Shown here: positions 6,621 to 40,739 of the stretch, in pieces | How positions within the stretch are numbered: the first letter of the stretch is position 1 | How the letters are laid out: every line of letters begins with the position of its first letter | Assembly (NCBI GenBank): GCA_021234155.1 | Contig: JAJEKV010000101.1 | Coordinates: 841,453 to 905,452, forward strand | Direction: 5' to 3' | DNA: 64,000 nucleotides | Source of the DNA: Isoetes taiwanensis | Taxonomy: Eukaryota > Streptophyta > Lycopodiopsida > Isoetales > Isoetaceae | Notes under the pieces: generated by a model | Seen by the model: the letters and a program-made list of their open reading frames with translations, nothing else | Databases searched by the model: none | What the model was told of the DNA's origin: nothing | Translations under genes and position numbers: made by a program

Positions 6621-6629
6621 CACATCTTT

Positions 6630-8836: not shown

Positions 8837-10499
8837 TGTGGCGTCCCCTACTGCATTATACGGTGCACTCACAGTATACAAACAGAGTTCATCCCCATAC
8901 CAGCTCCACGCTAATCACGGGGGGCCCTCACATGACACCGCAACCGTGGCCGGGTTCCAAAGGGAAGAGTGGAAGGGTCATTGCACCCCCGCTCCCTCGG
9001 GGGCCTACCTAGGCTGCGGAGCGTAAACATACATGTCAAGCACATACATCAACATCATATGACTATCACGAAGGATGGTCCTCCACATATCTGCATAGAC
9101 AAAGATCAAAGACATCACATAGGGAATCCTACCCAAGGCTTTCCGGACTCAAGGGATGGTGGCGGCAGGTCTCGAGTTCATTGCGCAGGCAAATTCATGG
9201 CAATGGATTTGGGTGGCATATGAACATGGCTTAGGGTTGTCCCTCCATCAGCCCCTCACATGCACACTTTACTTCGAGTAAATTGAAAAGTGTTGGGACC
9301 CTGGCGTAGCCACGCCCGGATGCATAGCCAAAAGAGGGCTATTCACGGGTTCCATCTCCCGTTCAGATGGGGCGGTAAAGGGATCTCCCCCTCGAGGAGG
9401 AGGTCTACATCTTTGACTCAAGGTGACTAGAGGGCCCTTTGCGTATTCATTGAACCTTTGGAAAGTGTACACCACTTCACGGTGTCGAGCCCATGCCTTA
9501 CCATACTTGGTGGTAAGCCATTAGACCTAGTCACAATGATCCTGGTAGCACTAACACACCATAGGGGTGGATTCAAAGAGTCGAACACGAACCTCCTTCT
9601 AAGCGGTCGGCCCTGCACCCACAACGGTGTGGTTCTTGTGCCTGAGCGAATCTCTAGATGTGCTAGAGAGGCTACTCTAGGAGCATCAACTACAAAGCTT
9701 TAGGTCTCTACCCCCTTCCCAATACAAGGAGTTCATAGAGATGCATCATCCATATACTTCCTGAGAGAACTAAAGAACTAGATCTAATCTACAACATAGA
9801 GTTAGGTTCTTTAGTTGGGATCTGCTATCTAGAGATCTAGAGGGCTGCTATGGGTAATCTAATAGGCTAAACCCTCTTGATTCTAGGACTAAAATAAGGT
9901 TTAGACTATCTAATTGGCCAAAACCTGATCCTTGAGGGGCTCCTCGACTGAGCTTCGACCATCTATTTGGCTTTCGAATCTAGAGGAACTAAGGATGCAA
10001 TTCTCCCAGTAGTGCAGGATCAGGTTTTAATTTTGTTGAGGCAGCCAAAGCAGTTCTAAAACCCTAAAATCGAAAATTGGGCTGGTTAGGGTTTCCTACC
10101 CTATATAGACAAGGGGTTGGCTAGGGTTTCCAATTATCCCCTTTGGCATGTGGGATAATTGGGAATGGAACCCCACTTGCCTTTAAAGGGCTAGGTGGCC
10201 AAATGTGCACACATGGAAATGTGTGCCCACATTAATGTGTACATTGGAAAATGTGCACATTAATTGCACCTATAGAGTGGCCCACTTGGCATGAAGTGTC
10301 CACTTGTAAATGTGTGCCCCATTAATGTGTACATTGGAAAATGTATTGCGTTAATAGTTGCACATATTTCGGCAAGTTGCCCCTAGGGCTACTCACTGGC
10401 TACGCAGCTAAGCATTACCGCGTCGGTGGCGTGGGCGTGTACGCGTGTGAGGCGATGCGGTATATCGATCACGGGGCGATACTATCTTTGAACGTCACA
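8837..10499 (-). repeat. Array LTR 1 (outer 3' LTR of unit 1)
   Basis: 1663 bp, starting TGTGG and ending cgtcaca next to the polypurine tract. It contains a TATA-like box on the minus strand and two copies of a 50-bp internal repeat (about 10216-10268 and 10309-10365; aaatgtgtgccc..acattggaaaatgt). It is matched along its whole length by the other three LTRs. Confidence 0.93.
10101..10108 (-). promoter_or_regulatory. TATA-like box in array LTR 1
   Basis: ctatatag on the plus strand (reading ctatatag on the minus strand too) lies in the middle of the LTR, next to telo-box-like aaaccctaaaa at about 10058-10070. The same pair recurs at 22419-22427, 34069-34078 and, shortened, near 46332 in the other LTRs. 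A role as the transcription start region of the minus-strand element is inferred. Confidence 0.55.
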
Positions 10500-11335
10500 T
10501 TCTCCCCACCTTGAAATGATCTTTGTCCGGCATCGTGGGTCTCCACCTTGGGATCATCGTAACAATCAACACGATACATACGATTACTACTATAATTCCT
10601 ACACATTTATTAAAATTACCTTAAGGTAATATCTTTATGACATTATCACATCCTTATATTATGAAATAACTTATCAATTCACAACATTACTAAGCAGTTA
10701 CTTCAAAATTCACTTAACATTACGATTAAGTTTATCAAAATTTTAAAATTACGTCCGAGGTATTCTTCATCCCTTGCAACACATTCCAACAAAATTTGTG
10801 TTGCGAGTCTTCGTAGCTCGACCTCCTTGCCCTCCGGCGCGCTCTATTGGCCTGCAGGTCGACACTACGTTAGTACCATTTAATTATTAATAAAATTTTG
10901 GTTATATGGTGACCACCCCACCTATCTACATGGATGCATGGCTAATCTCGGCGTTAGGAAGAGGGTGAATCTTCCATTATAGCTTGGAGAGGCAGCCCTA
11001 TATGCCTATATGCGCTCATGCCTACACCTCTAGTTGCCCAACAGGAGGATATCCTTCTCGTGTGGGGGCGAGAAGGATAGATTCCTCCTATCAAAGCATA
11101 TATGGGGCTAAAGGTGCTTTCCTATCAGCGCATTCCTTCATGACCTCCTTTCTCTCGAGGTGGTCTACTTCCGGGGGGACAGTAGACTTTCTAATCTACC
11201 TTCCACTAAGCCCAGTGAAACGTCATGCCTACATTGACATTACACCACGCCCTAGAGATCACCGTAGTGGTCCCATCATCGGTGACAACGCATGCGACCC
11301 ATACTAAGCATAGGTGGCATCGTGGGATTAATCTT
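10500..11335 (-). other. Unit 1 polypurine tract and 3' noncoding region
   Basis: On the minus strand, caaggtggggagaa directly abuts the LTR, a typical polypurine tract for plus-strand priming. A second, nearly identical purine block lies about 40 bases further in (about 10540-10555). The rest is AT-rich noncoding DNA with the end of pol near 11335. The same double tract is seen in units 2 and 3 and in element A. Confidence 0.7.
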
Positions 11336-11339
11336 AACT

Positions 11340-14300
11340 ACACCAGAATTAACCTACACAAATCGACATGCACGAGCCGATTTCTTGAAGATGACCTTGC
11401 CGTCCCATTGCTCCATAAAGCGTGGATCTTTGCTTTACTAAATCTTTCTTAAGTACCCACGTCGCATCTTCCACTTTGGTAAGTGTTTCCACTTGACCAA
11501 ATCTTTGAGGAATTCTGATCTCCTCGTTTTCTTGAAAGCTTTATCAAGAATCAGTTGGAACTATTTCCAATCGCTCCTCCTTCATTTCCAACAACGTTGG
11601 CGAATCAAAGACTTAGATACGGATTTGGAGTATGCTTCTTCAACAAACTCACGTGGAAGACCTTATGAATCTTTAGGTGTCTTTGGCAAGTCTAACTTGT
11701 AGGATTGATTACCTACTCTCACGACTATTAGAAGGTCCAGCCCACCTTGGAGCAAGCTTCTTGCAATTCCCGATCTGAGCCGCTGCTTCACCTTGATCTT
11801 GAGCCAAACGTCATCTCAACTTTGAACTCTCTTCTTTATTCGATGCTTGCCGTGATGCTCTTCGGCGACTTCTTGCTGCTAGCGGATAACCTCGAACTTC
11901 TTCCACAAGCTGCTGCATATCGGCCAACATCTGCTGCTTGAAACTTCCACTTTTGACCGGGTTGTGCCAAATTATCCGGAGTTAGCAGCGATAGCGTAAT
12001 TGATCATAAAATTGGTGACATTTGGGATGATTCTGCTTGGTGCTATTGTATGCAAACTCCACCAAGTGAATAAATTCTTCCCACATACTTTGCTTATTCG
12101 GACATAGTTCCGTAGCATGTCCTCTAAAAATCCTGTTGGTCCGCTCGTCGGCCATCCGTCGAGGATGGTATCGCGTGCTCATGGATAGCCGTTACGATTT
12201 GTCGCGAAGAGGTCTTGCCAAAAGCTCATGAACCCGGATCCTTGTGGGAGATGATCTCCCTTGGCATGCCATGAGCACGAAGATCTCTTTGGTGAAAGAG
12301 CTTTTTGTATCCATAAAATTTGTATCTGTGGTCACACAAAGGCACAAAATGTGCCATCTTAGACAACATGGACCACTACCATCAAGGCATCCTTCCCTCT
12401 TGCTGTTCTTGGGAGTCACCGTGATGAAATCCATGCTAATTACCTCCCACTTGGCGTTTGTACCTAATGGCTCTAATGCCCCTGGAATTGAAAGGCTGCT
12501 CGCCCCTTCGTCTGGCGGCATAAACTGACATTCCTTGATAGCGAGCTATTTGCTTCTTCATTCTGGCCAATAATAGGCTAGCTGCGCACTTTGAAATATG
12601 TTTTCATGAATCCGCATGGCGGCTATTGGGGACATCTGTCGTGTCATGGAGGATCAACTTCCTTACACGATGGTTAGATGCAGCACAACTTGTTCTTATG
12701 GTATAACGAGGTTGCCTTCCTTCTTATAATGCTTGAAGGCCTCCCGCTCTTTTATACTGTTCTAGCCTCCTTAGAAAGGCTTGTCCATACTTCACTGAAA
12801 TCCACATCCGTTGGCAAGGACTCTTCAATCCCTCTTACCAAAGTCATTTGGAGGCGTCGAAATTGCATTGCAATGTACTCTAGTTGTCGGGGATGCCTTG
12901 AAGCGTCACTACCACATTGAGCTTCTGGCTTGTAGACTATATCAAAGTCGTACTCTTCAAGGAACTCCATCCACCTTCTCTGCCTCAAGTTGAGGTGTGG
13001 TTATGAATACATATTGAGGCTCTGGTGGTCTGTATCCAACTGGAACTTCCTTCCCAAAAGGTAGTGCCTCCAAATTCTTAATGCCACGACAACCGCGAGC
13101 AATTCCCGATGCGTGCGTGGGGTAGCGTTTAAATCGTTCATCTTCCGGAATCATACGCCACTACACGCTCTTCTTGCATAAGCTTAACACACCGTAGCTA
13201 TCTTACTGCATCTCTGTTGCTACAAACTTATCCTTCTCGGGTCCGTGAGGTTAAGGCCCAGGGTTGTTAAAGCTTCCTTCAACAATTCAAACCACAGCAG
13301 GCTTTCTTGTGCCAATGCTTTGCCCAATCTTTCACTTTCTCGCGCGCGTCAAGTGCATTGCGAGAACGCTATCTTCACAAAGTTCTTCTCTGAACTTCAC
13401 AGCGTAGTACCACCTTTAGGCGAAACTTACGACTTCATGCACATTCTTGGCACGGCCTTTGAATGGCGACCGATCTTTGCGGGATCCGTTGAGATGCCTT
13501 TCTCTGAGATCACATGACCTAGATACTCCACCTTCTGCATTTGCGAAGTGGCGCCGACATAACTTGGCTACAGCGGTGCCTCTTCAACTTCTCGGCACTC
13601 TTCTCAAATGTTATGCGTGCTCTTCAAAGGGATCTGCTATACACCAAAAATGTCATCAAAAAACAATCACAAAGGTGTCTAAAACTCCCTCGAAGATGTG
13701 GTTCATGAGCCTCATGAGCGTTATGGGGGGCATTAGATAAGCCGAAAGGCATTACCGTGAACTTCGTAGTGCCCATACTGCGTTCAAAGGCGGTCTTATG
13801 GATATCTTCTTCCTTTATCCTGATCCGATGATAACCTGACCTTAAGTTAGATTTTGGAGAAGATCTTTTGCCCTTGGAGCTGATCCATCAAAAATTCGTC
13901 ACGATCTTGGGCGCATACTTGTTCTTAATGGTGTGCTTGTTCAATCGCCTTTATAGTCTATGCACATCCTTAAACTGCCATCCTTCTTCTTAACGAAGAG
14001 AATGGGCGCTCCAAATGGCGACACACTAGGTCTAATGAAACCTAGGTCCAGCAGCTCCTGCAACTGCTTCTTTAGCTCCGACAACTCCTGCGTTGTCATT
14101 CTATATATGGAGCTTTGCTTGTTGGCTTTGTTCCCGGCCAGGGTAGCCCTTAAGGACGAAAGTTCGCCAAAAGGCTATTTTTTAAGGGTTTCGAGAAACT
14201 TTGATGCTATGATTTAGTAGGGCCGTTATAGATGAAAAAAATAAAATTAGCCAACTTTTCTACAAACAAATCTCACTCCACTTGAAAATTCGCCACATCC

Positions 14301-15590
14301 ACTAAGCGTCATAACTATGGATTCGCCTTATTCTCTACCCTCCTCCTCGAAGATTTCTTAAGGAATCGCCTAATATTCTAGGCTTTCTTCATAACCTAAT
14401 ATATCCTCCATATCCATCCAAGTACATATGATAATTTTAAGAGCTATTTTTGTAGCTATTGTGTTGCAAATACTTCTAAGGTTATTGTGTTTCTATTGTG
14501 TCTTATCTTTTAATAGATTTGTTTTATCTACAAGGATAAGCCATGTTCTCATTTGCAAAGGTTAAGTTGTGGTATTGCATCATGCAACTATAGTTATAAT
14601 GTGTTTGTGTCCTTGTTTAAATATGGATGCCAGTGAATAAAATTTCACCACGAAATTGCACTTGGAAAATAAAGACTTAAATCTTGGCAAAAATAATATT
14701 GGCCATGATTAAAGCTAGATTTCTATAAAACATTCATGTCTAAAAACATTCGCCCGGCAAGATAACTAATCTTGCAACTCTATTATTAGCACCTTCTAAA
14801 TTATGCTTAGACAAATTTGGCCTTAAGGGCAACCATTTCCTTTCGAGTGCAATCTCGCACTCAACTCCCCTATATGGAGGGAGCGCTTGATCTCATCACG
14901 GGAAGAGATCATGGAACTCGCGGATCAGCTTAGCTACTTGCCCGGCAACTTGCCGAGCACCTTGTCTTCTTTGCTTCCTTAGATTACGGCTCACTAATCT
15001 CAAGCTTGAAGATGTATGCCACCGTTAAACTCTTGATGCACTTGAGCAGTAGTTTAGAAGACATACAACATGATGGGAACAACTTCCTTTTTGTTATCTC
15101 AATGATCTTGCCGTCGGGTGTTGGGAATGTCACCTTCGCTTTCCATTAATCGATAATGGCCCCTAGCGGCCCAAAAGGTACTCCATTCCTATGATCAAGT
15201 CATACTTGCCAATGCCCATTATACGCCCCCATCGGATATTAATGCACGGCAAGTCGATGTCGAGATTAATTCTCTTGCCCGGCCGCTTGCTTCTTTGCAC
15301 CACTTGCTAAAACAAGGGTCTTGGCACGGCTTTTGCGGCTTCAAATTCAACATCCTGAACCGTGCAGGGGATGCAAAGTTATGGCTACTTCACGAGTCTA
15401 TCAAGACTATGAAGGACTTGGCCTTGGCCTTCCCTCGCGGGAAATTACCTTATCTTGGCTCTCTTTTGCTCTGTATCTATTGCGGCAAGATATGACACTC
15501 ACCCCTGAATGTAGTCGCGGGCCTCTTCGCCGTCGTCGTCCGACAGTCGTCCCAATCTCCCAACTCCTAGAGCCTGCACTCATGGCGTAG
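11340..15590 (-). pseudogene. Unit 1 pol (protease to chromodomain)
   Basis: Reading from high to low coordinates: protease (about 15100-15500), RT (about 13500-14110 and beyond the insert), RNase H (12750-13270), integrase (11700-12650) and a chromodomain near 11400-11510. Diagnostic strings include RQRRWMEFLEEYDFDIVYKP (12930-12990) and WEEFIHLVEFAYNSTK (12020-12090). The 14139-14833 insert lies between the RT and protease regions. Fossil with many breaks. Confidence 0.88.
14139..14833. mobile_element. Probable hAT-like nonautonomous DNA transposon in unit 1
   Basis: About 695 bp of AT-rich DNA absent from the same site in units 2 (near 26480) and 3 (near 38125). The left end reads cagggtagcccttaagg and the right end ccttaagggcaacc, which are inverted complements over gcccttaagg. 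The CAGGG start is typical of hAT elements. The flanking 8-bp duplication is not clean here, so boundaries are good to a few bases. No transposase is recognisable. Confidence 0.65.
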
Positions 15591-15594
15591 GGGC

Positions 15595-16850
15595 AGTTTG
15601 TTTGTCCCGGCGGCTGGTGGAAGCACTGGGCTACAACCTTTTCTATGCACTCCTGCCTCTTTTCCTTGGGCATTGCCCACAAAAAGGATCGCCTTGCTTT
15701 GGAGTAGTTTGACCCCTCCCTTGTCTTTGAAGGACACTGCTTCTTCTCCTGTTGTTTCCCGTTCCCACCATATGGGGCTCTAAGGCGGACTGGGTAGCTG
15801 CCACGGGGCTACTTATAGCTTCACTGTCGCCTTGCTTTTATCCGGAAGTATCTTTGTTTTCTGCCGGCTATTACGAAATCGACCCTGCAAACATAGCCTT
15901 GGATTAAGCAACGATCATGTCCTAGGGTTTATTGCTCTCACAAACTTGCGGATCTCCTCATTCGACCCCCTCGATATAGCTTTCCACCGATGCTTCTCTC
16001 CCAACCCGGCACATCTGACCCCTTAGCCTCATGAATTCCTCTCAGATATTTACGGGTGATTTGTTGCCTTTCTTTAGCAACCTTTAAAAAGGCTCTTTGC
16101 ATCATCTTTGGACTTATGTTCCCTTAGAGACGTAATGGCTTAGAGGCTTTTACAAACTTTACGAACTTTACAAAAAGCGTCCTGCAAGCCATGTGCCTTT
16201 GCATAACCCTTCCACCAAATCCGGCGGCTCCTTTCAAGTTGGTATTGCAACTCTGCCTTTGTCCCTTATCCTTCATGCCATAAGCATTTTAAAATTTTCG
16301 CTCATTTAAATCCAGCCATGCCTCTGCTTCCAATCGACTGTTCTCCCACGAGGCTGTTCGATTCAGGGCCTTCCATACATTGCGGTCGCGGGAATCCTAC
16401 CTTCTTACGGTAGTCGAGGGCCTGGTATCTCTTTGTATCGTCCCTCTGGGGTATTCCTCTGCCTTCCATCTGTTGGTTCACAGGCCTCTTCTTCCCTCTT
16501 CCTTGGAGTGGTCCCGGTCAGGAACTTGAGTCGGGAAGGGTCAGGGCTGGAAGGATCTCCTTCTCTTGCTCCTCTTCTTGTCTCTTCACCTTCTCAGAGC
16601 TGATGCTTGCGGCAACTGGCGTTACTTACCAAGACCCACCTGCTTGCGGACTGGTAATGCCTTTATCACGCTCCAGTCCGTCCTCATCGGGCTATCTCCT
16701 CCTCACGGGGTCATGGGTTCCATATCTTCAAATAGGTTCCTTCTTGCAGGGTGGTGCGGGTGGGGTTTGCTCTTCTATAAGATCTACATGGTTATGGTTC
16801 CCCTGCGTTTTAGGCCTCTAGCTTGCATCCACAAGCAATTCATGGCTATA
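15595..16850 (-). pseudogene. Unit 1 gag region
   Basis: Minus-strand counterpart of the unit 3 gag: the Ser/Asp/Glu-rich N-terminal part lies at about 16480-16850, the gag core (AYGMKDKDK-type) at about 16200-16330 and the zinc-knuckle part at about 15600-15680 (KEKRQECIEK). Broken fossil. Confidence 0.75.
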
Positions 16851-16854
16851 TGAT

Positions 16855-16985
16855 TAGTTTCATTTGTTCTCTTGCATTATTTATGTTTGTTGGTATAGTT
16901 GTGGGGCAAAAATACATCAACAAAGCATTTAAAGTGCAATAAGATTTATATTCATATATCATATAATATTTGGTCATACAAAATC
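16855..16985 (-). other. Unit 1 AT-rich spacer between ORF2 and gag
   Basis: About 130 AT-rich bases (tatattcatatatcatataatattt) between ORF2 and gag. Nearly identical spacers lie at 28495-28625 and 40740-40868. On the minus strand the ORF2-side border carries gta and the gag-side border catatag, so intron-like ends are possible; this is inference only. Confidence 0.55.
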
Positions 16986-16989
16986 TCGG

Positions 16990-18530
16990 GGATCAAGAGT
17001 TTAACTAGTCTTGAAATCGCCCGGTAAGGCGGGTTGTCTTCAAGAAACTTCTTAACTTGGGCCGTCCCTACCGAGTGACCCAAGTTCTGATAATGCTTGC
17101 CGGCGAGCCTCCCTGTATGGCCCTCACGGGTCTTCTACCTGCGGTCCGGATGTAGGGCCGCGGATCCTTCTCGCCAATCTCTGGCGTCGGTGGGGGTATG
17201 GTCGAAGGTCAAGTGTCATTGCCCTCTTGACTAAAACTGGCATAGTCGACATTTATTGCTATTAAGGCATGCATGCCGAGCACGAGGTGCAATCGGCATG
17301 AACCTCCTTCTTAAGCCTCGGGGGTGAACTTGCGGTGAATTACGCTATTCTCCCCATCCATCGGCCCGGCAAGTAGTACGGCGACACATCGTTGTGTGTC
17401 GTAGAAGCTTCTCAGCTTGTTTGGCCTCCCGCTCACGTGCGCCCGGCGTACTCATCGACCTCAATTTGATCGACTCCACCATAGTCTTCCATTGTCTTGT
17501 CCGAGCCTCCTGGGGAGTCGATTCCTTCTCGCTTTTGGCGGGGTGATATGTCGGAGGATTCGGCATTAGGATGCTTTCGTGGATGTTCCCACGGATCCCC
17601 ATCTGCTCTTGGAGGCGAGGAACTCCTCCTCACATTGGCGACTCCTTTCGTCCATCATTTGCCTTATCTTCTTTTGTAGGCCTGGATATGGTCGTCTCCC
17701 ACTTGGCCAGGTGTCGGCCTCCCTCACTTGCGGAAAGTCCTGAGGCTCCCGGACGATGAAGTCGTCCATGTCGGTCTACCCGCTGTTGGTGGGCGATTCG
17801 TCAACCCAGCTCCCTCTCCCGCATTGGGGAAGGTTACGGATGTCGAGGGAGTAGATACTCCTCTCCGTTAATGATGATCAGGGGCTAGGCTTGTGATGCC
17901 CCTGGCAGAGTGGGGAGGCGACTCGATGCCACTGTAGGCTACGCTTTCGAAGTTGATCGGCTCCTGCTGCGCGGCGCCGTTCTTCGTCACGAGTCGAGCT
18001 CAGGTGTATCCTTCGTTCGTCCGACTCCTCCTCATCCTCTCTTGCTTCCTGTTCTGTTGATACTACAACATCATCTGCTCTTCCTCTTACCTTTGCTATG
18101 GGGTCTACCTCCATCGGAGGGATGAGGTTGCCCCCATCGGGTTCTCCGGCGGTGGGATAAGAAGATGGCTAGGGCTGCGGTGTAAGAAATACTTGGTCTG
18201 TTGGCTTTTCTCGGGGACCATGTAGTCGTAGTCTCTGCGCCTTGTTAGTCAAGTACTTGGCGATGTTGGGGACATGCCCAAAGTACTGAAGGGATGGGCG
18301 GGGAACAAAGTATCCTATGCAAGGGGGACTTGGACAAGGGAGGGTCCTACCCTAGCCTGAAATTCTGCTAGCACACCGCCTATATCTTTTGGGTTGCATT
18401 CAAATATAGTAGCTTGGATGTCGATTTCTTTCACAAAGACTTGGAAGATGTCGTTGACATCCGCCTCTCGGCGACATGGGCCTTTGTACCATGCCCGAAA
18501 ATCAGCGAAAGGCCATTGATCTAGCAAGGA
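16990..18530 (-). pseudogene. Unit 1 ORF2 (unrecognised)
   Basis: Minus-strand coding remnant starting near 18530 with an ATG region followed by FADFRAWY, DVNDIFQVFVKEIDIQAT and DIGGVLAEFQARVGPSLVQ (18315-18527). A charged Glu/Arg-rich stretch follows at 17880-18110 and an Asp/Glu/Arg-rich one at 17430-17770. It ends near the AT-rich spacer. No known domain recognised; it could be an N-terminal extension of gag or an independent accessory protein. Three near-identical copies in the array and a diverged one in element A show it is a regular part of the family. Confidence 0.6.
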
Positions 18531-18817
18531 AGGGGAGTATCAAACGGATCACCGGCGCCTTGAGGAGGCTACAAAAGATCGCCCTAGCGTGGGGAGCAAA
18601 TTTGCAGGGTGCCAATTGAGAAATGGGGGACTTATTTATAGAAAAGGGGAAAACCCTAATTTTTGGATGACTTAGAATTTATTGAGATTAGGCAATTCTG
18701 ACCTATTAAGTGATGCAATTGCAAGTTTGAAGTATATTTCTAGGGTTTGGGCATGCTAAGGACAGCTACTGAACCTATTGTACAACTTGGAGATCATTTG
18801 GTGATGAAATGAGCGGG

Positions 18818-19081
18818 GGTCTCCTGCGTTGCGCCCGGCCCGATTTCTAAAATGTAGAAATACGTCTGGCGGCGTGTGAGACATGGGTCCTAATTGGGCT
18901 AGGATTACTCAATTTAGGTGATCTAAGGCTGTAATTCCACTAAACTCCTGGAGTTAGGCAGAATTGACCCCTTACTTGGTCGATTTGGAGCTGTTTTGGG
19001 CATTTTTGGGCATGGTCTCACACGTTGCGCCCAGCCCGATTTCTAAAATGTAGAAATCTGTCCTGGCGCGACGTGTGAGAC
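18818..19081 (-). repeat. Unit 1 hairpin motif pair between ORF1 and ORF2
   Basis: Two copies (18818-18882 and 19014-19081) of a 65-68-bp inverted-repeat motif. The ends are ggtctcacacgt and acgtgtgagac, nested inside is tgcgcc/ggcgcg, and the centre is atttctaaaatgtagaaat. It can fold into a long hairpin. Two more copies lie upstream of ORF1. Confidence 0.85.
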
Positions 19082-19229
19082 ATCGTCTCAATTTTGCTCA
19101 AAGCTCCAATTTACTTAAAACAAAAGCTAGGGATCGATATCTTGACCTATTTAAACGGGGTTTGAGACTTTATTTACACAAAATTTTCTTTATATTAACA
19201 AAATTTTCCAGTTATTTACAAAACTCAAG

Positions 19230-19492
19230 GGCGTTCACCCTTGATGTGCCTGGCAAGATACATATCCTGCCTCATGAGGGTAACCCTCTTCGGCGTGCCG
19301 TCTTGGTAGTTGAATCTTCAAAATGCTTTACTATATGGCGCCCGGCGCCTCTTGTAAACACAGCAGCATCTCGTCGGTCACGCGCATGTCTGTGTTGTAT
19401 TCTTGTATGACTTCGCGGACCAAACGCTGGAACGGCGCCCGGGGGATCAGGAGTCCGTAACTCTTCTGGAAGTGGCGGATCTCCTTGAGTGC
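19230..19492 (-). pseudogene. Histone H3-like domain of unit 1 ORF1
   Basis: Minus strand from 19492: ALKEIRHFQKS, then LLIP, PFQRLVREVIQEYNTDMR, a LLCLQEA string, and near the end KRVTLMRQDMYLARHIKGE. Canonical H3 has ALREIRRYQKS, LLIRKLPFQRLVRE, ALQEA and KRVTIMPKDIQLARRIRGE in the same order and spacing, and the total length (about 87 codons) equals the H3 core. Loop 1 has canonical H3 length, not the longer CENH3 form. The usual K4/K9 tail is not recognisable; a Lys/Arg-rich segment precedes the fold. Not all strings lie in one open frame. Confidence 0.85.
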
Positions 19493-20503
19493 CCTGTCTT
19501 CCAGCTTCTTCTTCTTGCTCCGCTTCTTCCCTGGTGCTCGGGGAGGCTTGGGTTTTGGTGGGGGCCCGATTAATGCGGCTTAGTCGGTTATCCGCCTTCA
19601 ATCGTTCTCACGGTGCTCCCCGGTAATATCGTTATGCGCCTCCCACCTTGCCATATAAGCGTTGTGCTCCTTGATCCTCTTCGGTAGACCTTTAGGGGGT
19701 CTATCACATATGCTTCCGTTCGCGGCGGCGGGGCTTTGACTCTATCCCGCGTTGGAAGCGGTGGGGGCTTTGCTAAACTTGTCCGGTCTCCTCCCCTTCT
19801 TGGGTTATGCGCTCGGGGACCTCTTCCTCTATGACGGGGCTTTGAAGAGCTTGCTCGTCTGCGCCCGACGCGTGAGTCTCCATCAGGTCGTCGGTGGTGG
19901 GCGGGGTCTCCCCCTCGACGGCTGCGTTGATGGCGGACCTTCGAAACGCTTCAGACCTTTACCGGCTTCCTCTTGCACACGCGCTTCTGACTTTGGCCCT
20001 CCTCTTCTTGGGTCATTTAGTGTGATGGTCGTCTTCCCGACTCTTTGTCCTCTGCTCGCTCGGCTCCTTGGCCGTGCCTTGTGGGCCGAAGCGTCTTGTC
20101 GGCCTCTTCTTCGGGGTGAGTTCCGGTGCTGCTCCTCTCTTCCCTGCTCCTCCTGCGGGTGGATCTCGGCACAGGGGTTGCTCACGGGCTGTTGATGGAT
20201 CCCTTTGTTCCCTCTGCTCTCCACGTGGGTTGGCGTCCTCACGGTGTTGCTCCTGCTGCTGCGCGCTTCTTTCCTCTTCCGTAGCGATTTGCGTCGGGGA
20301 TGCGGTTCATAACATCTGGCGGTCATCCTCCAAAGAGCTGCGATGCGGTCGCTCGATCGACCACAGCTTCCACCAAACCGGCGAAGATTACGTCGCCGTG
20401 GAAAAGCGTTCGAAGAATCACGTGAAGAGGCGGGCATTTGGCCCATTTGGAGGAAAAACCCGGCTAGGCTTCCTTGCGATGCAGCTTTGTCGCGGGCCAT
20501 CAT
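19230..20503 (-). pseudogene. Unit 1 ORF1: extra ORF with histone H3-like C-terminus
   Basis: Begins at about 20503 with MMARDKAASQ and runs towards 19230. The first 200 residues are Arg/Lys/Gly/Pro-rich and look disordered. The middle carries a KVYQKRIKEHNAYMARWEAY-like helix-prone part (clearest in unit 3). The last 87 codons are histone H3-like (separate entry). It sits between the leader and ORF2, well before gag, so it is an accessory ORF. Extra ORFs 5' of gag are known in the Ogre/Tat group, but this element has a chromodomain and is a chromovirus. Broken fossil. Confidence 0.7.
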
Positions 20504-21129
20504 CTTACGGTTTGTTGATCAGACTAAAGCGCCCGGAAGATACGCCTTGGCGATCCGGCGAAGTTCACTGGGAAGAACGGGAAAAATGGGAGATGCAGTT
20601 CTATTTATAGGGCCAATTTTAGGTCAACTTTTAAACTACCTTTTTGGGTTGTCTAGAGCACCTAAAAACACCTAATTAAGCAAGGTCTCACCGCGTTGCG
20701 CCCAGCCCGTTCCTAGAATCTAGAAACAACCCGTCTTTGGCGGACGTGTGAGACATGGTGGGGCCCACTATTAAATTAACATGTAACATGCTAAATCTAC
20801 TAATTCTTAGCTTAAAATTAGAATTATCAAAGGTATTTTCTTTGTAATTTACAACTTTTTGGTGTCAAAGTGAATGTCTCACCGCGTTGCGCCCGGCCGA
20901 TTTCTAAAATGTAGAAATGCGTCTGGCGGCGTGTGAGACCACCCTACTTTTTGGATGTTGGCTCATCAATTTTAGTCTTTTTTCGTTTTTATTCATTTTA
21001 AGCATTTACTAGCTTAGCATAAACTACAAAAATGAGAAAAAATTTTCTCATTTTTGAGGTTTGAGGATCCTATCAAGTTAGTGCTCTTGGGAACATGGCG
21101 GTGCTTTGCTCTTGGTCTCCAAGAACATA
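20504..21129 (-). other. Unit 1 leader with hairpin motif pair
   Basis: Noncoding leader between the primer site and ORF1. It contains two hairpin motifs, 20684-20754 and 20875-20940, of the same type as at 18818-19081, separated by AT-rich DNA. No gene seen. Confidence 0.8.
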
Positions 21130-21142
21130 ACTCACGATACCC
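21130..21142 (-). other. Unit 1 primer-binding site (initiator Met tRNA type)
   Basis: The minus strand just inside LTR 2 reads ggtatcgtgagt, close to the TGGTATCAGAGC primer site. Equivalent sites are at 32792-32803 and 45034-45044. Similarity, position and the same following block (atgttcttggag) support the call. Confidence 0.75.
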
Positions 21143-21143
21143 T

Positions 21144-22822
21144 TGTGGCGTCCCCTACTGGTATACGGTGCACTCGCCATTATACAAGCGAGGAGTTCAT
21201 CCCCATACCAGCTCCATGCTATCTGGGGCCCTCCACATGACAATCGCGGCCGGCGGGTTCGATTGGGAAGAGTGGAAGGGTCATTACACCCGTCTCCCTC
21301 GGGGCCTACCTAGCTGCGCGGAAGCGTAAACATACATGTCGAAGAGCACATACATCAACATCATATGACCATCCGCGAAGGATGGTCCTCCACATATCTT
21401 GCATAGACAAAGATCAGCACATCACATAGAATCCTACCCAAGGCTTTCGGACTCAAGGGATGGCCCGGCGGCTTGGGTCTCGAGTTCATTCTTCGCGGGG
21501 CGAGAATTCATGGCAATGGATTTGGCTGGCATATGAACATGGCTTAAGGGTTGTCCACTCCATCCGCCCCTCCCACGCACACTTTCTGCGAGTAGGCTGA
21601 AAAAAGTGTTGGGACTGGCCCAGCCCGCCCGGATGCATAGCCAAAGGGCTATTCACGGGTTCCATCTCCCGATTCGATGGGGCGGTAGGGATCTCTCCCT
21701 CCAGAGGTCTACATGCTGACTCAAGGTGACTAGAGGGCCCTTTGCCGTATTAAACCCTTTGGAAAGTGTACACCACTTCCGCGGGTGTCGAGCCCATGCC
21801 TTACCGACGCGGTGGTAAGCCATTAGACCTAGTCACAATGATCCCGGTAGCACTAACACACCATAGGGGTCGTTCAAGAGTCGAGAACACGAACCTCCTT
21901 CTAAGCCGGTCGGCCCCTTCACCCACAACCCAGTGTGGTTCTTGTGCCTGCAGGCCGAATCTCGATTGTGTGCTAGAGGCTACTCTAGGAGCATCAACTA
22001 CAAAGCTTTGGGTCTCTACCCCCTTCCCAATACAAAGGAGTTCATAGAGATGCATCATCCATATACTTCCACGAGAGAACTAAAGAACTAGATCTAATCT
22101 ACAACATAGAGTTAGGTTCTTTAGTTAGGATGCACTTTATCTAGAGATCTAGAGGGCTGCTATGGGTAATCTAATAGGCTAAACCTCTTGATTCTAGGAC
22201 TAAAATAAGGTTTAGACTATCTAATTGGCCAAATATACGATCCTTGAGGGGCTCCTCGACTGGCTTCGACCATCCTGTTTGGCTTGGCTTCGAATCTAGA
22301 GGAACTAAGGATGCAATTCTCCCGAGGCCCGATGCGGGATGCGGTTTTTTTTTGAGGCAGCCAAAGCGGAGTTCTAAAAACCCTAAAATCGAAAATTGGG
22401 CTAGTTAGGGTTTCCTACCCTATATAGACAAGGGGTTGGCTAGGGTTTCCAATTATCCCCTTTGGCATGTGGGATAATTGGGAATGGGCCCCACTGCCTT
22501 TAAGGGCTAGGTGGCCAAATGTGCACACATGGAAATGTGTGCCCACATTAATATGTACATTGGAAAATGTGCACATTAATTTACACCTATAGATTATGGC
22601 CCACTTGGCATGAAGTGTCCACTTGTAAATGTGTGCCCCATTAATGTGTACATTGGAAAATGTGCACATTAATAGTTACACATATTTACGGCAGAGATTG
22701 CCCCCTAGGGCTACTCACTGGCTTCTGCAGCTAAGCGTACCGTCGGTGGCGTGGCGTGTGCGGCGTGTGGAGGCGATGCGGTTATCGTCTGGGGCGTTAT
22801 CTTTGTCTTTGGAAACGTCACA
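21144..22822 (-). repeat. Array LTR 2 (shared by units 1 and 2)
   Basis: 1679 bp, TGTGG..TCACA. It serves as 5' LTR of unit 1 and 3' LTR of unit 2: its left edge abuts a primer site and its right edge a polypurine tract, both on the minus strand. TATA-like box at 22419-22427; internal 50-bp repeats at about 22518-22570 and 22624-22676. Confidence 0.93.
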
Positions 22823-23675
22823 TTCTCCCCACCTTGAAATGATGTTGTCCATGACATCGTGGGTCTCCCCACCTTGGGATCATCGTAACGCAATCAACAC
22901 GATACATCACGATTACTACTATAATTCCTACACATTTATTAAAATTACCTTAAGGTAATATTTTTATGACATTATCACATCATTATATTATGGAAATAAC
23001 TTATCAATTCACAACATTACTAAGCAGTTACTTCAAAATTCACTTAACATTACGATTAAGTTTATCAAAATTTTTAAAATTAAATCCGAGGGTATTCTTC
23101 ATTCCTTGCAACACATTCCAACAAAATTTGTGTTGCAAGTCTTAATCTTCGACCTCCTTGCCCTCCGTGGCTCTATTGGCTGCTTGTTAGACACTCACGT
23201 TAGTACCATTTAATTATTAATAAAATTTTTTGGTTATATGGTGACCACCCCACCTATCTACATGGATGCATGGCTAATCTCCGGCGTAGGAAGAGGGTGA
23301 ATCTTCCATTATGGCCCGGCGGAGGCGGCGCCTATATGCCTATATGCGCTCATGCCTACACCTCTAGTTGCCCGGCGTGGAGGATATCCTTCTCATTGGG
23401 GGCGTGAAGGATAGATTCCTCCTATCAAAGCATATATGGGGCTAAAGGTGCTTTCCCTATCAATGCATTCCTTCATGACCTCCTTTCTCTCGAGGTGCGT
23501 CTACTTCGTGGAGCAGTAGACTTTCTAATCTACCTTCCACTCCCCAAGCGAGCGGTCATGCCTACATTGACATTACACCCACGCCCTAGAGATCACCGTA
23601 GTGGTCCCATCATCGGTAACAATGCATCGACCCATACTAAGCATAGGTGGCATCGTGGATTAATCTTAACTACAC
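22823..23675 (-). other. Unit 2 polypurine tract and 3' noncoding region
   Basis: The polypurine tract (minus strand caaggtggggagaa) abuts LTR 2; a second tract, ccaaggtggggagaccc, is complementary to 22862-22878. AT-rich noncoding DNA follows. No gene seen. Confidence 0.7.
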
Positions 23676-23679
23676 GGAA

Positions 23680-26600
23680 TTAACCTACACAAATCGACAT
23701 GCACGAGCCGATTTCTTGAATGACCTTGCCCGTCCCATTGCTCCATAAAGCTGTGGATCTTTGCTTTACTAAATCTTTCTTAAGTACCCGCGTCGCATCT
23801 TCCAGCGGTAAGTGTTTCCACTTGACCAAATCTTTGGAGGAATTCGATCTCCTCGTTTTCTTGAAAGCTTTATCAAGAATCAATTGCGGAACTATCTCCG
23901 GTTTGCTCCTCGAGTCATTTCCAACAGCGTTGGCGAATCAAGACTTAAATGCGGATTTGGAGTATGCTTCTTCAACAAACTCCGTGGAAGACCTTATGAA
24001 TCTTTAGGTGTCTTTGGCAAATCTGGCTTGTAGGATTGATTACCTACTCTCTTGACTATTACGAAGGTCCGGCCCACCTTGGAGCAAGCTTCTTGCAATT
24101 CCGATCTGAGACTTAGCTGCTTCACCTTGATCTTGAGCCAAACATCATCTCCAACTTTGAACTCTCTTCTTTGTTCGATGCTTGTCGGCGATGCTCTTAC
24201 GGCGACTTCTTGCGCTAGCGGATAACCTCGAACTTCTTCCACAAGGCTGGCGCATATCGGCCAACATCTGGCTGCGAAACTTCCACTTTTGACGGGGGGT
24301 TGTGCCAAGTATGCGAGTTAAACAGCGATAGCCGTAATTGATCATAAGCGGCGACATTTGGGATGATTCTGCTTGGTGCTATTGTATGCAAACTCCACCA
24401 AGTGAATAAATTCTTCCCACATACTTTGCTTATTCGGACATAGTTTAAAGTAGCATGTCCTCTAAAATCTGTTGGTCCTTCCGTCGGCCATCCGTCGAGG
24501 ATGGTATGCGTGCTCATGGATAACCGTGCGAATTGTCGCGAAGAGGTCTTGCCAAAAGCGCTCATGAACTTGGATCCACATCGGAGATGATCTCCCTTGG
24601 CATGCCATGAAGCACGAAGATCTCTTTGGTGAAGAGCTTTCTTTGTATCCATAAATTTGTATCGTGGTCTGCAAGGCACAAAATGTGCCATCTTAGACAA
24701 CTTGTCGACCACTACCATCAAGGCATCCTTCCCTCTTCTTTGTTCTTGGGAGTCTGTGATGAAATCCATGCTGATTACCTCCCACTTGGCGTTTGGCACA
24801 GCTAATGGCTCTAATGCCCTGGAATTGAAGCTGCTCCGCCTTTGTCTGGCGGCATAGCTGACATTCCTTGATGTAGCGAGCTATTTGCTTCTTCATTCTG
24901 GCCAATAATAGGCTGCTTTGCGCGCAAAATATGTTTTCATGAATCCCGCATGGCCAGCTATTGGGCTGTTTTGTCGTGTCATGGAGGATCAACTTCCTTA
25001 CACGATGATTGAGATGCGCTGCTTGTTCTTATGGTATAACGGGTTGCCTTCCTTCTTATAATGCTTGAAGGCCTCCCGCTCTTTATCTGTTCTAGCCTCC
25101 TTAGAAAGGCTTGTCCATACTTCCACAGAAATCCACATCCGTTGGCAAGGACTCTTCAATCCTCTTACCAAAATTCATTTGGATATAAATCGAAATTGCA
25201 TTGCAATGTACTCTAGTTGTCGGGGGGATGCCTTGAAAGCGCGTCCGCTACCACATTGAGCTTCCACGGCTTGTAGACTATATCAAAGTCATTACTCTTC
25301 AAGGAACTCCATCCACCTTCTCGCCTCAAGTTGAGGTGTGGTTGCGTGAATACATATTGGAGGCTCACGGTGGTGCGTATCCAAGCTGGAACTTCCTTCC
25401 CAAAAGGTAGTGCCTCCAAATTCTTAATGCCACGACAACCGCAAGCAATTCCTGATGCGTGCGTGGGGTAAGCGGCGTTCGGCGTCGTTCATCTTCACGG
25501 AATCATGCGGCTACCACAGCTCTTCTTGCATAAGCCTTTTTGTAGCTATCTTACTGCGCATCTGTTGCTACAAGCTTATCTTTCTCGGTCCGGCGGGTTA
25601 AAGGCTGGGGCTGTTGTTAAAGCTTCCTTCAACAATTCAAACCACTTTTGGCTTTCTTGTGCCAATGCTTTGCCCAATCTTTCACTTTCTCGCCCGGCGT
25701 CAAATTACATTAGGCGGGGCTGCTATCTTGGCAAAGTTCTTTCTGAACTTCTGTAGTACCCTTCTAAGTAGAAACTTCGACTTCATGCACATTCTTGGTG
25801 GCCGGCCAGCGAATGGCGGCTTCAATCTTTGCGGGGATCCGTCGAGATGCCTTCTGGCGAGATCACATGACCTAGATACTCCACCTTCTACGTTGCGAAG
25901 TGGCGCCGACAACTTGGCGTTACAAGCTGGTGCCTCTTCAACTTCTCCGGCACTCTTCTCAAGTGTTATGCGTGCTCTTCAAGGGATCTGCTATACACCA
26001 AAATGTCATCAAAAAAACAATCACAAAGGTGTCTAAAACTCCACGAAGATGTGTCGTTCATGAGCCTCATGAGCGTTGTGGGGGCATTCGATAAGCCGAA
26101 AGGCATTCACGTGAACTTCGTAGTGCCCATCTGCGTTACGAAGGCGGTCTTATGGATATCTTCTTCCTTTATCCTGATCGATGATAACGACCTTAAGTCA
26201 ATTTTGGAAGATCTTTGCCCCTTGGAGCTGATCCATCAAGTCGTCACGATCTTGGAAAGCATACTTGTTCTTAATGGTGTGCTTGTTCAAGCGCCTATAG
26301 TCTATGCACATCCTTAAACTGCCATCCTTCTTCTTAACAAAGAGAATGGGCTCCAAATGGCGACACACTAGGTCTAATGAAACCTAGGTCCGGCAGCTCA
26401 CACAAGCTGCTTCTTTAGCTCCGACAACTCTGCGTTGTCATTCTATATGGAGCCTTGCTTGTTGGCTTTGTTCTGGTTGGTTGGTGCAATCTCGCACTCA
26501 ACTCCCTATATGGAGGGCTGCTTGATCTCATCACGGAAGAGATCATGGAACTCGTGATCAGCTTAGCTACTTGCCCGGCAACTTCTTTGAGCACCTTGTC

Positions 26601-27225
26601 TTCTTTGCTTCCTTCCGATTACGGCTCACTAATCTCAAGCTTGAAGATGTATGCCACTTGCTCACTCTTGATGCACTTGAGCAGTAGTTTAGAAGACATA
26701 CAACGCATGATGGGAACAACTTCCTTTTGTTATCTCAATGATCTTGCCGTCGGGCGTTGGGAAGGTCACCTTCCGCTTTCCACGGTCGATAATGGCCCTG
26801 GCGGCCCAAGGTACTCCATTCCTATGATCAAGTCATACTTGCCAATGCCCATTACTTACGCCCCCCATCACGGATATTAATGCACGGCAAGTCGATGTCG
26901 AAGTTAATTCTCTTGCCATGGTCGTGCGCCTTCTTGCACCACTTGCTAAAACAAGCGGGTCTTGGCTTTGACTTTAAGCGGCTTCAACTTCAACATCTGA
27001 ACCATTACGGGGGATGCAAAGTTATGGCTACTTCACGAGTCTATCAAGACTATGAAGGACTTGGCCTTGGCCTTCCCCTCTTGTGGAAATTACCTTATCT
27101 TTTGGCTCTCTGCTTGCTCTATCTATTGCGGCAAAGATATGACCTCACCACAGATGTAGTCGCGGGCCTCTTCGCCCGTCGTCGTCCGATAGTCGTCCCA
27201 ATCTCCCAACTCCGCTAGAGCTGCA
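23680..27225 (-). pseudogene. Unit 2 pol (protease to chromodomain)
   Basis: Same domain order as unit 1. The chromodomain string LVKWKHLPLEDAT is readable in the open stretch 23680-23883. The integrase part includes [15 protein letters not shown] (24720-24799) and a linker segment with FKVGDDVWLKIKVKQLSLRS (24100-24180). RNase H and RT lie at 25210-26300, protease at about 26800-27100. No large insert. Many breaks. Confidence 0.88.
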
Positions 27226-27229
27226 CTCA

Positions 27230-28490
27230 TGGCGTAGGGGCGGTTCTTTGTCCTATGGCTGGCTGGGAAGCACACGAAGCACAAGCCTTTTCTATGCACT
27301 CCTGCCTCTTTTCCTTGGGCATTGCACGCAAAGGATCGCCTTTGCTTTGGAGTAGTTTGACCCCTCCTGCTTGTCCTTGAAGGACACACTGCTTCTTCTC
27401 TATTTGTTTCCCTGGTTCCCACCATATGGGGCTCTAAATTTGGACACAGGGCTGGCTGCCACAGGGGCTATAGCTTCTGTCGCCTTGCCTTTATCACGGA
27501 AATCTTCTTTGTTTTACCCCGCTATTACGGGTCTTGACCCACGCAAAGCTTATAGCCTTGGATTCAAGCCGATCTTGTCCTAGGGTTTATTGCCCTCACA
27601 AGCTTGCGGATCTCCTCATTCAGCCCCTCAATATAGCTTTCCTCGCATGCTTCTCTCCCAACCCGGCGCGTCTGACCTTAGCCTCATGAATTCCTCTCGT
27701 ATATTTACGGACTGATTTGTTGCCTTCTTTGCAGCTTTTTAAAAAGCTGGCGCATCATCTTTGGACTTATGTTCCCTCGGACGTAATGGCGCAGAAGGCT
27801 TTAGCAAACTTTACGAACTTACAAGCATCCACAGCTTAAGCCATGTGCCTTTGCATAACCCTTCCACCAAATCCGGCGGCTCCTTTCAAGTTGGCTGTTG
27901 CAACTCGCCTTTGTCCTTATCCTTCATGCCATAAGCATTTCCGTTACTTCGCTCATTTAGTCCGACCATGCCTCTGCTTCCAATCGACTGTTCTCCCACG
28001 AGAACTGTTCGATTCAGGGCCTTCCATACATTTGCCGGTCGCGGAATCTACCTTCTTCTACGGTAGTCGAGGCCACGGTATCTCTTTGTCGTCCCTACGG
28101 GGTATTCCTCTGCCTTCCATCTGTTGGTTCACGAGCCTCTTCTTCCTCTTCCTCGGTCGGTCAGTGCGAACTTGAGTCGGAAGATTCGGGCTGGAGGATC
28201 TCCTTCTCTTGCTCCTCTTCTTGTCTCTTCACGCCCTCAGAGCTGATGCTTGCGGCAAGCGGCGTTGCCCACCGAACCCACTCACACTTTGCGGGACGGT
28301 AATGCCTTTATCTGCTCGGGTCCGTCCTCATCGGGCTATCTCCTCCTCTGGGGTCATGGGTTCCATATCTTCAAATAGGTTCCTTGCTTAGGGGGTGAGT
28401 GCGGGTGGGGTTTGCTCTTCTATAAGATCTCGCGGTTTATCGTTCCCCTGCGTTTAGGCCTCTAGGCTGCATCCACAAGCAATTCATGGC
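27230..28490 (-). pseudogene. Unit 2 gag region
   Basis: The zinc-knuckle remnant CFVCFPASHRTKN lies in the open stretch 27123-27425; the core region and the Ser/Glu-rich N-terminal part extend to about 28490. Broken fossil, same order as unit 3. Confidence 0.75.
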
Positions 28491-28494
28491 TATA

Positions 28495-28625
28495 TGATTA
28501 GTTTCATTTGTTCTCTTGCATTATTTATGTTTGTTGGTATAGTTGTGGGGCAAAAATACATCAACAAAGCATTTAAAGTGCAATAGGATTTATATTCATA
28601 TATCATATAATATTTCGGATACAAA
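28495..28625 (-). other. Unit 2 AT-rich spacer between ORF2 and gag
   Basis: Nearly identical to the unit 1 spacer at 16855-16985. Confidence 0.55.
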
Positions 28626-28634
28626 AGTCTCAGG

Positions 28635-30190
28635 GAATCAAGAGTTTAACTAATCTTGAAATCGCCCGGTAAGGCGGGTTGTCTTCAAGAAACTTCTTAA
28701 CTTGGGCGTCCCTACCGGGGTGACCCAAGTTCACGATGATGCTTGCCGGCGAGCCTCCACTGTATGGCCCTCACCAGGTCTTCTACCACTAGCGGTGGGA
28801 TGTAAGGGCGCGATCCTTTGCTAATCTAATCGTCGTCGGGGGGTATGGCCGAAGTCGAAGGTCAAGTGCCATTGCCCTCTTGACTAAAGGCGGCATAGTC
28901 GACATTTGTTGCTATTGAGCATGCTGCCGAAGCACGAGAGTGCAATCGGCATGAACACTCCTTCTTAGCCTGGGGACTGAACTTGCGGTGAATTACCGCT
29001 ATTCTCCCATCCATCGGCCCGGCAAGTAGTACTGGCGACACATGCGTTGTGTGTCGCCGAAGCTTCTCCGCTTGTTTGGCCTCCCGGCTACGTGCGCCCG
29101 GCGTACTCGTCGACCTCAATTTCGATCAGCTCCTGTAGTCTTCCATTGTGCGGTCGAGCCTCACGAGGTCGATTCCTTCTCCTTTTGGCGGGGGTGATAT
29201 CGGGAGGACTAGGCATTAGGATGCTCGTGGTCTTCCCACGGATCCCCATCTGCTCTTGGAGGCGAGGAACTCCTCCCTGTTGGCGACTCCCCTCGTCCAT
29301 CATTTGCCTTATCTTTGCTGTAGGCACGGATATCGGAGGTCGTCTCCCACAGTGCCGGTGTCGGCCTCCCTCACTTGCTAGCCCGGAAAGTCACGAGGCT
29401 CCCCGGCTTGATGAAGTCGTCCATGTCGGTTTACCGCATTGGTGGGCGATTAAGTCCAACTGAGCTCCCTCTCCACGCATTGGAAGGTTACGGATGTCGT
29501 GAGGAGTAGATACTCCTCTCCGTTAATGATGATGGGGGCTAGGCTTGTGATGCCTAGCCCGAGTGGGGAGGCGACTTCGATGCCTGCCCGGCTCTGCTTC
29601 GAAGTTGATCAGCTCTGCTCTCCTTGGCGCCGTTCTTAGTGCGAGTCGAGCTCAGGTGTATCCTTAGTCGTCAGACTCCTCTTCATCCTCTCTTGCTTCT
29701 GTTCACGTTGATCTTTGCCAGCGGCATCTACTCTTCCTCTTACCTTTGCTATGGGGTCTACCTCCATCGGAGGGATAGAGGTTGCCCCCGGGGGTTCTCC
29801 GTGCGATGGGATAAAGAAGATAGCTAGAGGCTGCGGTGTAAAAAAATACTTGGTCTGTTGGGTGTCGAGGGACCATGTAGTCGAGTAGCCTTTGCGCCTT
29901 GTTAGTCAAGTACTTGGCGATGTTGGGGACATCGCCCAAAGGCTCTTGAAGGATGGGCGAGGGAGCAAAGTATCCTATGCAAGGGGGACTTGAACAAGGG
30001 AGGGTCCTACCCTAGCACGAAATTACTGCTAGCACACTGCCTATATCTTTGGGGTTGCATTGGCATTAACTTGGATGTCGATTCTTTCACAAAGACTTGG
30101 AAGATGTCGTTGACATCCGCCCTCGGCCCGACATGGGCAGCTGGCTTTGTACCATCGCCCGAAATCAGCGGTAGCCATTGATCTAGCAAA
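28635..30190 (-). pseudogene. Unit 2 ORF2 (unrecognised)
   Basis: Copy of the unit 1 ORF2; DVPNIAKYLTNKAQRLLDYM is readable at 29880-29939. No known domain. Broken fossil. Confidence 0.6.
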
Positions 30191-30476
30191 GAAGGGGAGT
30201 ATCAAGCGGATCTTGAGAAGCGCCTCGGGGAGCTGAAAGATCGCCCTAGCGATTAGGAGCAAATTTGCGGGGTGCCAATTGAGAAATGGGGACTTATTTA
30301 TAGAAAAGGGAAAACCTAATTTTTGGATGACCTAGAATTTCTTGAAATTAGGCAATTCTGACCTATTAAGGATGCAATTGCAAGTTTGAAGTATATTTCT
30401 AGGGTTTGAGCATGCTAAGGACAACTACTGAACCTATTGTACAACTTGGAGATCATTTGGTGAAGAAATGGTACGA

Positions 30477-30738
30477 GGTCTCACACGTTGCGCCCAGCCC
30501 GATTTCTAAAATGTAGAAATCTGTCCTGGCGCGACGTGTGAGACATGGGTCCTAGTGGGCTAGGATTACTCAATTTAGGTGATCTAAGGCTGTAATTCCA
30601 CTAAACTCATCGAGTTAGGCGAGAATTGACCCCTTACTTGGTCGATTTGGAGCTGTTTTGGGCATTTTGGGCATGGTCTCACACGTTGCGCCCCCGATTT
30701 CTAAAATGTAGAAATACGTCTGGCCGGACGTGTGAGAC
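30477..30738 (-). repeat. Unit 2 hairpin motif pair between ORF1 and ORF2
   Basis: Copies at 30477-30544 and 30674-30738 of the tctcacacgt..acgtgtgaga inverted-repeat motif described for unit 1. Confidence 0.85.
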
Positions 30739-30886
30739 ATCGTCTCAATTTTGCTCAAAACTCTAATTTAATTAAAACAAAAGCTAGGGATCGATATCTT
30801 GACCTATTTAAACAAGGTTTGACACTTTATTTACACAAAATTTTCTTTATATTAACAAAATTTTCCGGTTATTTACAAAACTCAAG

Positions 30887-32150: not shown

Positions 32151-32154
32151 CCAT

Positions 32155-32803: not shown

Positions 32804-32806
32804 CTT

Positions 32807-35335: not shown

Positions 35336-35339
35336 CAAA

Positions 35340-38880: not shown

Positions 38881-38884
38881 GCGT

Positions 38885-40735: not shown

Positions 40736-40739
40736 ATGA

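Follow-up and report, generated by a model that had tools for sequence, protein, structure and literature searches.

The closest described counterpart of the elements reported here is a hAT DNA transposon of the wheat fungus Pyrenophora tritici-repentis, which transduplicates an H3-like gene; in the accessible parts of that report, ESTs of the gene are recorded and no function is given (PMC3538342). Plant Ty3/gypsy elements are known to carry extra coding capacity. Orchid elements encode an AlkB demethylase, and a screen of 121 angiosperm genomes recovered 15 unusual domains in LTR elements (PMC9289625); the accessible main text uses the word 'histone' twice, neither time for a captured domain. 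Additional ORFs have also been catalogued in plant Ty3/gypsy elements, in a report whose accessible text has no occurrence of 'histone' (PMC7264820). In the corresponding parts of two chromovirus papers (PMC2864245, PMC6317226), the word occurs once each, in connection with chromodomain binding, and a figure legend in the former marks an additional ORF without giving its function. Core histones encoded by parasites are known from DNA viruses, as judged from the portions available: a bracovirus H4 becomes part of host nucleosomes, where its 38-residue extended tail changes expression (PMC5423620), and Marseillevirus encodes histone doublets (PMC5704553). The initial annotation of the DNA studied here held that no LTR retrotransposon had been reported to carry a histone, and we found none in the literature covered (titles, the starts of abstracts and passages, with most subscription journals and bioRxiv falling outside), the fungal hAT element being the nearest case.

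The elements described below come from Isoetes taiwanensis, a lycophyte rather than the fern that had been implied; its genome paper has no occurrence of 'histone' in the main text (PMC8566536). Like the Pyrenophora transposon, they place an H3-like gene in many copies on a mobile element. As far as the accessible text of that report goes, however, the fungal element is a DNA transposon with terminal inverted repeats, confined to one fungus, with near-identical copies and its H3L gene beside the transposase (PMC3538342), whereas the Isoetes elements are LTR retrotransposons, with LTRs, reverse transcriptase (RT) and integrase instead of a hAT transposase and terminal inverted repeats, an N-terminal part fused to the H3, two lineages and deeper divergence. 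With plant chromoviruses, as the available passages describe them, they share gag, protease, RT, RNase H, integrase, a chromodomain and a 5-bp target-site duplication, but differ in that an H3-bearing ORF (ORF0) and a second ORF precede gag (PMC3350952, PMC2864245, PMC6317226). The situation resembles orchid AlkB and the additional ORFs in that a host-derived or unassigned ORF is fixed in a gypsy lineage (PMC9289625 and PMC7264820, accessible parts), and resembles bracovirus H4 in that a parasite encodes a core histone. Going by the same portions, the bracovirus and Marseillevirus are DNA viruses with H4 or doublets (PMC5423620, PMC5704553), unlike the retroelement-borne H3 found here.

We analyzed a stretch of 64,000 nucleotides (the window). 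Self-comparison revealed a minus-strand tandem array, in which four LTRs and three internal regions lie head-to-tail. Since TATTT bounds the array on both sides, it is enclosed by a single insertion event; it is a multimer, formed via unequal recombination or inserted as a concatemer. The array interrupts a related plus-strand element, with which it shares ∼68% DNA identity over gag-pol and 71–73% over the part beyond the array. The features of the two elements are as follows.

8837..46727, minus strand: tandem array of the inner element (four LTRs, three internal regions, one target-site duplication)
8832..8836, no strand: target-site duplication TATTT, left
46728..46732, no strand: target-site duplication TATTT, right
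8837..10499, minus strand: LTR 1 of the array (TGTGACGTT...GACGCCACA)
21144..22822, minus strand: LTR 2, the 5' LTR of unit 1
32807..34474, minus strand: LTR 3, the 5' LTR of unit 2 (low end approximate)
45045..46727, minus strand: LTR 4, the 5' LTR of unit 3 (low end approximate)
19225..20503, minus strand: ORF0 of unit 1, with a frameshifted start (MMARDKAA...), a long charged linker, the H3 core (19231-19492) and a stop after KGERP
19228..19579, minus strand: H3 core of unit 1 (PF00125, 2.4e-13 at 19334-19579 and 0.017 at 19228-19317)
30885..32157, minus strand: ORF0 of unit 2, frameshifted, starting MMARDKACIARKPSR, H3 core 30891-31145
43122..44398, minus strand: ORF0 of unit 3, frameshifted, starting MMARTKAVARKP, H3 core 43128-43399
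38218..39225, minus strand: protease region of unit 3 (RVP_2, 1.2e-9)
37615..37935, minus strand: RT piece of unit 3 (RVT_1, 3.7e-12)
36366..37508, minus strand: RNase H and integrase zinc domain of unit 3 (1.3e-34 and 2e-13)
23683..23937, minus strand: chromodomain piece in the array (PF00385, 0.074, below the cut-off)
1..845, plus strand: end of the outer element's 5' LTR (end placed by eye; the LTR may begin before the window)
2403..2702, plus strand: fourth H3 core, in the diverged outer element, frameshifted
5703..8836, plus strand: gag-pol part of the outer element, interrupted by the array
47501..47773, plus strand: integrase C-terminal SH3 domain of the outer element (8.1e-13), followed by chromodomain-like sequence (by eye)
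48825..50417, plus strand: 3' LTR of the outer element (end placed by eye)

Outside both elements, the plus strand at 51700-53739 has several open pieces, the longest 174 aa.

The initial annotation had placed an H3-like domain at 19230..19492, giving no strand. Its existence is confirmed, on the minus strand: Pfam PF00125 recognizes the open piece 19579-19334 as it stands (E=2.4e-13), and the piece 19317-19228, on the same strand, matches the last 17 profile positions (E=0.017). The core stops where H3 does (KGERP-stop in unit 1 versus RGERA-stop in H3), and the fold as judged from sequence, H3-specific motifs and the RGER C-terminus are found in the window and its relatives. Centromeric H3 (CENH3) carries a longer loop 1 than H3. 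Solved H3 chains align with the 19579-19334 piece at ∼1e-12 and without gaps, giving an H3-length loop 1; CENH3 identity is thereby ruled out, in line with the initial annotation, which saw no CENH3-type longer loop. The further domains announced at 30887-31144 and 43122-43392 are also present, but they are repeats of one tandem array and hence no independent recurrence. When pieces were searched separately, the Pfam match held for unit 1 only; eight others (one from unit 1 in another frame, seven from units 2 and 3) gave a single weak match (0.12), the reading frames of units 2 and 3 being broken by frameshifts. We therefore aligned plant H3 residues 42-136 to the whole 64-kb window with frameshifts tolerated. 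Scores of 212, 134 and 127 were obtained at 19231-19492, 30891-31145 and 43128-43399, all on the minus strand, and of 109 at 2403-2699 on the plus strand, compared to 56 for the next best place in the window and maxima of 49–71 over 20 Markov-shuffled 64-kb strands, which rules out a chance origin. The plus-strand copy, in the second element, and the H3-tail-like start of ORF0 had previously been overlooked.

In both the inner and outer families, H3 sits between LTR and gag, so it is either older than the split of the two families or was gained in both. ORF0 begins MARTKAVARKP in one array copy and MARDKACIARKPSR in another, compared to MARTKQTARKS for the H3 tail, which the starts of units 1–3 listed above all resemble. 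Profile searches of unit 3 recovered protease, RT, RNase H and integrase zinc domains. All four H3 copies in the window are frameshifted. Array copies differ by short indels clustered at CG-rich spots, and these look like nanopore errors at methylated sites left by imperfect polishing; the assembly was built from nanopore reads, according to the accessible part of PMC8566536. Because of this resemblance, sequencing error and decay are inseparable for the array copies, and single reading frames in this error-rich assembly are unreliable.

We extended the analysis to the whole genome assembly (1,658,258,908 bases, 1110 contigs). A PF00125 search brought up 8705 first-look candidates. The 150 that were scored all exceeded the cut-off, with open frames reaching 494 aa; the 8705, like the 9147 of another first look, are candidates and not a count of copies. 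Ten loci with long H3 frames (E1–E10) were fetched with 20 kb each, and 20 further loci were spread by hand down the PF00125 list. Together with one more, L057, these make 31 loci, all chosen by H3 match. Element genes lie downstream of the fused H3 in every one of the 31, bearing out across the same genome the earlier assignment of the window's H3 to an accessory ORF of a chromovirus; in all ten long loci, these include gag-pol in the same orientation. Between ORF0 and gag, 30 of the 31 (9 of the 10 long loci, all 20 further loci, and L057) carry another accessory ORF (ORF2, ∼400–470 aa), of which two pieces that were searched had no Pfam match. Examples are:

L011, 3064-4473, minus strand: ORF2
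L057, 2099-3199, plus strand: ORF2
Sampled loci L029-L048: ORF2

The remaining locus, E7 (L021-L022), has an LTR pair, the H3 ORF and long open gag-pol frames without ORF2. LTR pairs, 91.6–96.5% identical, mark both ends of six of the ten long loci (E2, E3, E4, E5, E7, E8). Within the 20 kb fetched, E1, E6, E9 and E10 showed no clean end-to-end pair, E9 having several LTR stretches. Target-site duplications of 5 bp are exact in E2 (GTGGC), E4 (AAAGT), E5 (GGAAA) and E7 (CAATC) and have one mismatch in E3 and E8. The primer-binding site TGGTATCAGAGC is present in E2, E3, E4, E7 and E8, and altered in E5. In E2, one long open frame covers capsid, protease, RT, RNase H and most of integrase (Ty3_capsid 1.4e-16, RVP_2 1.6e-13, RVT_1 2.8e-36, plus RNase H, integrase zinc and rve), and a zinc-knuckle-like stretch in gag matches weakly (0.0085). 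The Ty3/gypsy order of gag, protease, RT, RNase H and integrase is seen in E2 and, from protease to integrase zinc domain, in window unit 3. A chromodomain lies at the integrase C-terminus of E3 (PF00385, 8.2e-10). These elements are thus Ty3/gypsy chromoviruses with an H3-bearing ORF0 between the 5' LTR and gag.

One could suppose that the long H3s form a host gene family, lying near elements by chance or joined to them by assembly chimeras. The assembly is indeed rich in errors, and the records of the public proteins described below do not give their genomic setting. But target-site duplications enclose ORF0 together with pol, element genes follow in 31 of 31 loci, and the opposite-strand second element in the window repeats the arrangement. 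The idea is contradicted for the Isoetes loci examined and could still hold for the public proteins; overall we consider it very improbable. The narrower possibility that a host H3 gene was inserted by chance into a single copy is ruled out by the fourth window copy and the 31 further loci. Family members lacking the H3 region, which would have favored such an insertion, did not turn up among these loci, picked as they were by H3 match.

The H3 might instead be a passenger, a transduced host gene copied along and of no use to the element. Transduction of host genes by plant LTR elements is on record (PMC7264820, accessible text), and the window's own H3 copies are broken. Against this, ORF0 occupies the identical position in all 31 fused loci, its open frames attain the length given above, and two lineages with differing N-terminal parts retain the same complete H3 core. 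The core also appears constrained. Median dN and dS are 0.0139 and 0.622 for type II cores (36 pairs) and 0.0328 and 0.796 for type III cores (190 pairs), compared to 0.018 and 1.277 for host H3 (seven loci), and 0.097 and 0.739 (6 pairs) or 0.166 and 1.413 (15 pairs) for the N-terminal parts. Thus element cores differ mostly at synonymous sites (dN/dS ∼0.02–0.04), with dN biased low because the loci are the best-scoring H3 matches. Taken together, these data make a passenger distinctly unlikely.

ORF0 proteins fall into two lineages by what precedes the H3 core: the H3-tail-like start seen in the window, or another N-terminal domain, which is commoner in Isoetes. In the latter, long ORFs (the ten loci and L057) consist of an N-terminal domain of ∼300 residues, in most a short TGGK-like stretch, and the H3 core. 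Types II and III are distinguished among the Isoetes loci, with L048 and L057 as further kinds. The N-terminal domains of types II and III matched no Pfam family above the cut-off, and a protein search with the type III part gave 4570 candidates, none at E≤0.001. Predicted AlphaFold models were poor (mean pLDDT 47.6 and 53.6), and a fold search of the PDB returned no match at E≤0.001. In one public protein (P0014), residues 276-330 form, with relatives, a module before the H3 core; pLDDT is 75–86 over 281-330, the best part of a poor model.

The window lineage groups with public proteins that begin MARTKQTARK(N/D/T)TGGK. A composite query retrieved 554 proteins at E≤0.001, with 116 of the 120 matches listed coming from ENA contigs, and a query with the N-terminal part retrieved 758, with all 120 matches listed from ENA. 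Full-length proteins of this kind, here called type IV, comprise MARTKQTARK-x-TGGK (x usually N, D or T), 250–300 residues and an H3 core. A start pattern that fixed Q5, T6 and K9 and allowed K or R at position 4 fits 160 of the 222 proteins retrieved; all 160 have K14, and position 10 is N in 78, D in 48, T in 25, S in 5, A in 3 and H in 1. Their number and kinship suggest that the type IV proteins are themselves retrotransposon-borne. Matches of P0041 (residues 204-385) at C1044 in the Isoetes genome were considered as type IV copies and rejected, L057 being another subfamily of the common lineage; no locus of this genome is therefore established as type IV itself. Searches of viral contigs with an 82-aa piece and alignment A1, and of plasmids and phages, gave no match. 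In 15 comparisons of the window linker with the N-terminal parts of types II–IV, some scored slightly above 15 shuffles and some did not, which falls short of demonstrating homology.

Identity along type IV was assessed in 54 of 104 rows, the other 50 (<370 aa or without the core motif) being dropped. Median pairwise identity is 0.87 for the tail, which lay inside the query, and 0.80 for the H3 core, which did not, the proteins having been found by their first 335 residues; between the two it falls to 0.58 (insertion domain), 0.49 (linker) and 0.54 (pre-H3 module). Types II, III and V retain the H3-H3' contact residues C110, H113 and D123; among the public type IV rows, C110 and D123 vary. These contacts bear on the possibility that the protein acts inside the virus-like particle or pre-integration complex, its H3 fold binding cDNA or RNA there without entering host nucleosomes. 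In favor of such a particle protein, a retroelement requires nuclear entry and DNA compaction, and the ORF0 linkers are strongly charged. Yet H3 folds poorly without H4, the H3-H3' contact residues are conserved in those three types, and gag already has its weakly matching zinc-knuckle-like stretch. We regard a role confined to the particle as unlikely.

Separately, types II and V (E1, E4, E10, L036, L048) have H87 and L90, and in host H3 copies L001 and L004 position 87 is S or T and position 90 is L. H87 with L90 is typical of the replication-independent plant H3.3.

A histone phylogeny, which the initial annotation had called for, was computed from 27 H3 cores (96 columns). The window copy, on a long branch, clusters there with type IV (98/97). 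Types II, III and V make up another clade (99/97), whose neighbor is Isoetes host H3 (89/77). Two captures are what this best tree shows, though not decisively. Forcing all element H3s together, apart from host and reference H3, costs 1.27 log units (p 0.206), and neither this, nor a single element-H3 clade without the window copy (p 0.331), nor the window copy joined to types II, III and V (p 0.096) is rejected. The AU p of 0.008 applies to a constraint holding the window copy on the host side and has no bearing on single capture.

The anatomy, the recurrence across the H3 loci examined and the conservation of the core indicate that Ty3/gypsy chromoviruses took up histone H3 and have retained it in ORF0, between the 5' LTR and gag. 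Our preferred reading, which we hold to be probable, is that ORF0 is kept as a working gene, whose H3 variant would pair with host H4 and enter nucleosomes. An element-specific N-terminal part would thereby be displayed on chromatin: in one lineage an H3 tail with K4, K9 and K14, usually without S10, running on into 250–300 extra residues, and in the other an unrelated domain of ∼300 residues. The closest functional parallel that we found for this mechanism is the bracovirus H4 with its extended tail (PMC5423620, accessible passages). Such a signal of the element's own might recruit Gag or integrase to sites, or might blunt the silencing of new copies; we rate recruitment of integration and resistance to silencing about equal. 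The cage of a type I chromodomain is formed by aromatics at Y24, W45 and Y48, and type II lacks a full cage, according to the parts available of PMC2864245 and PMC6317226. In E3, E5 and E7, by eye only, the W of LVKW is present and the other two cage aromatics look absent; this apparent incompleteness gives no support to the notion that the tail is read by the element's own chromodomain. It is conceivable, if rather doubtful, that chromoviruses of non-seed plants, perhaps through two captures, build nucleosomes of their own, in which the element H3, with one lineage's tail carrying K4, K9 and K14 mostly without S10, marks element chromatin such that it escapes silencing or attracts integration. 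The initial annotation had likewise suggested that an element with a chromodomain integrase and an H3-like protein could mark, package or target its own chromatin.

Histone H3 is among the most conserved of eukaryotic proteins and one of the main targets when transposons are silenced. In the present elements, the party being silenced brings its own H3, which is present in many copies and seems to be under selection. It would thus become possible to test directly whether transposons can edit the chromatin by which they are repressed. These elements also provide natural H3s with inserts of hundreds of residues, in which the core has apparently been kept working.
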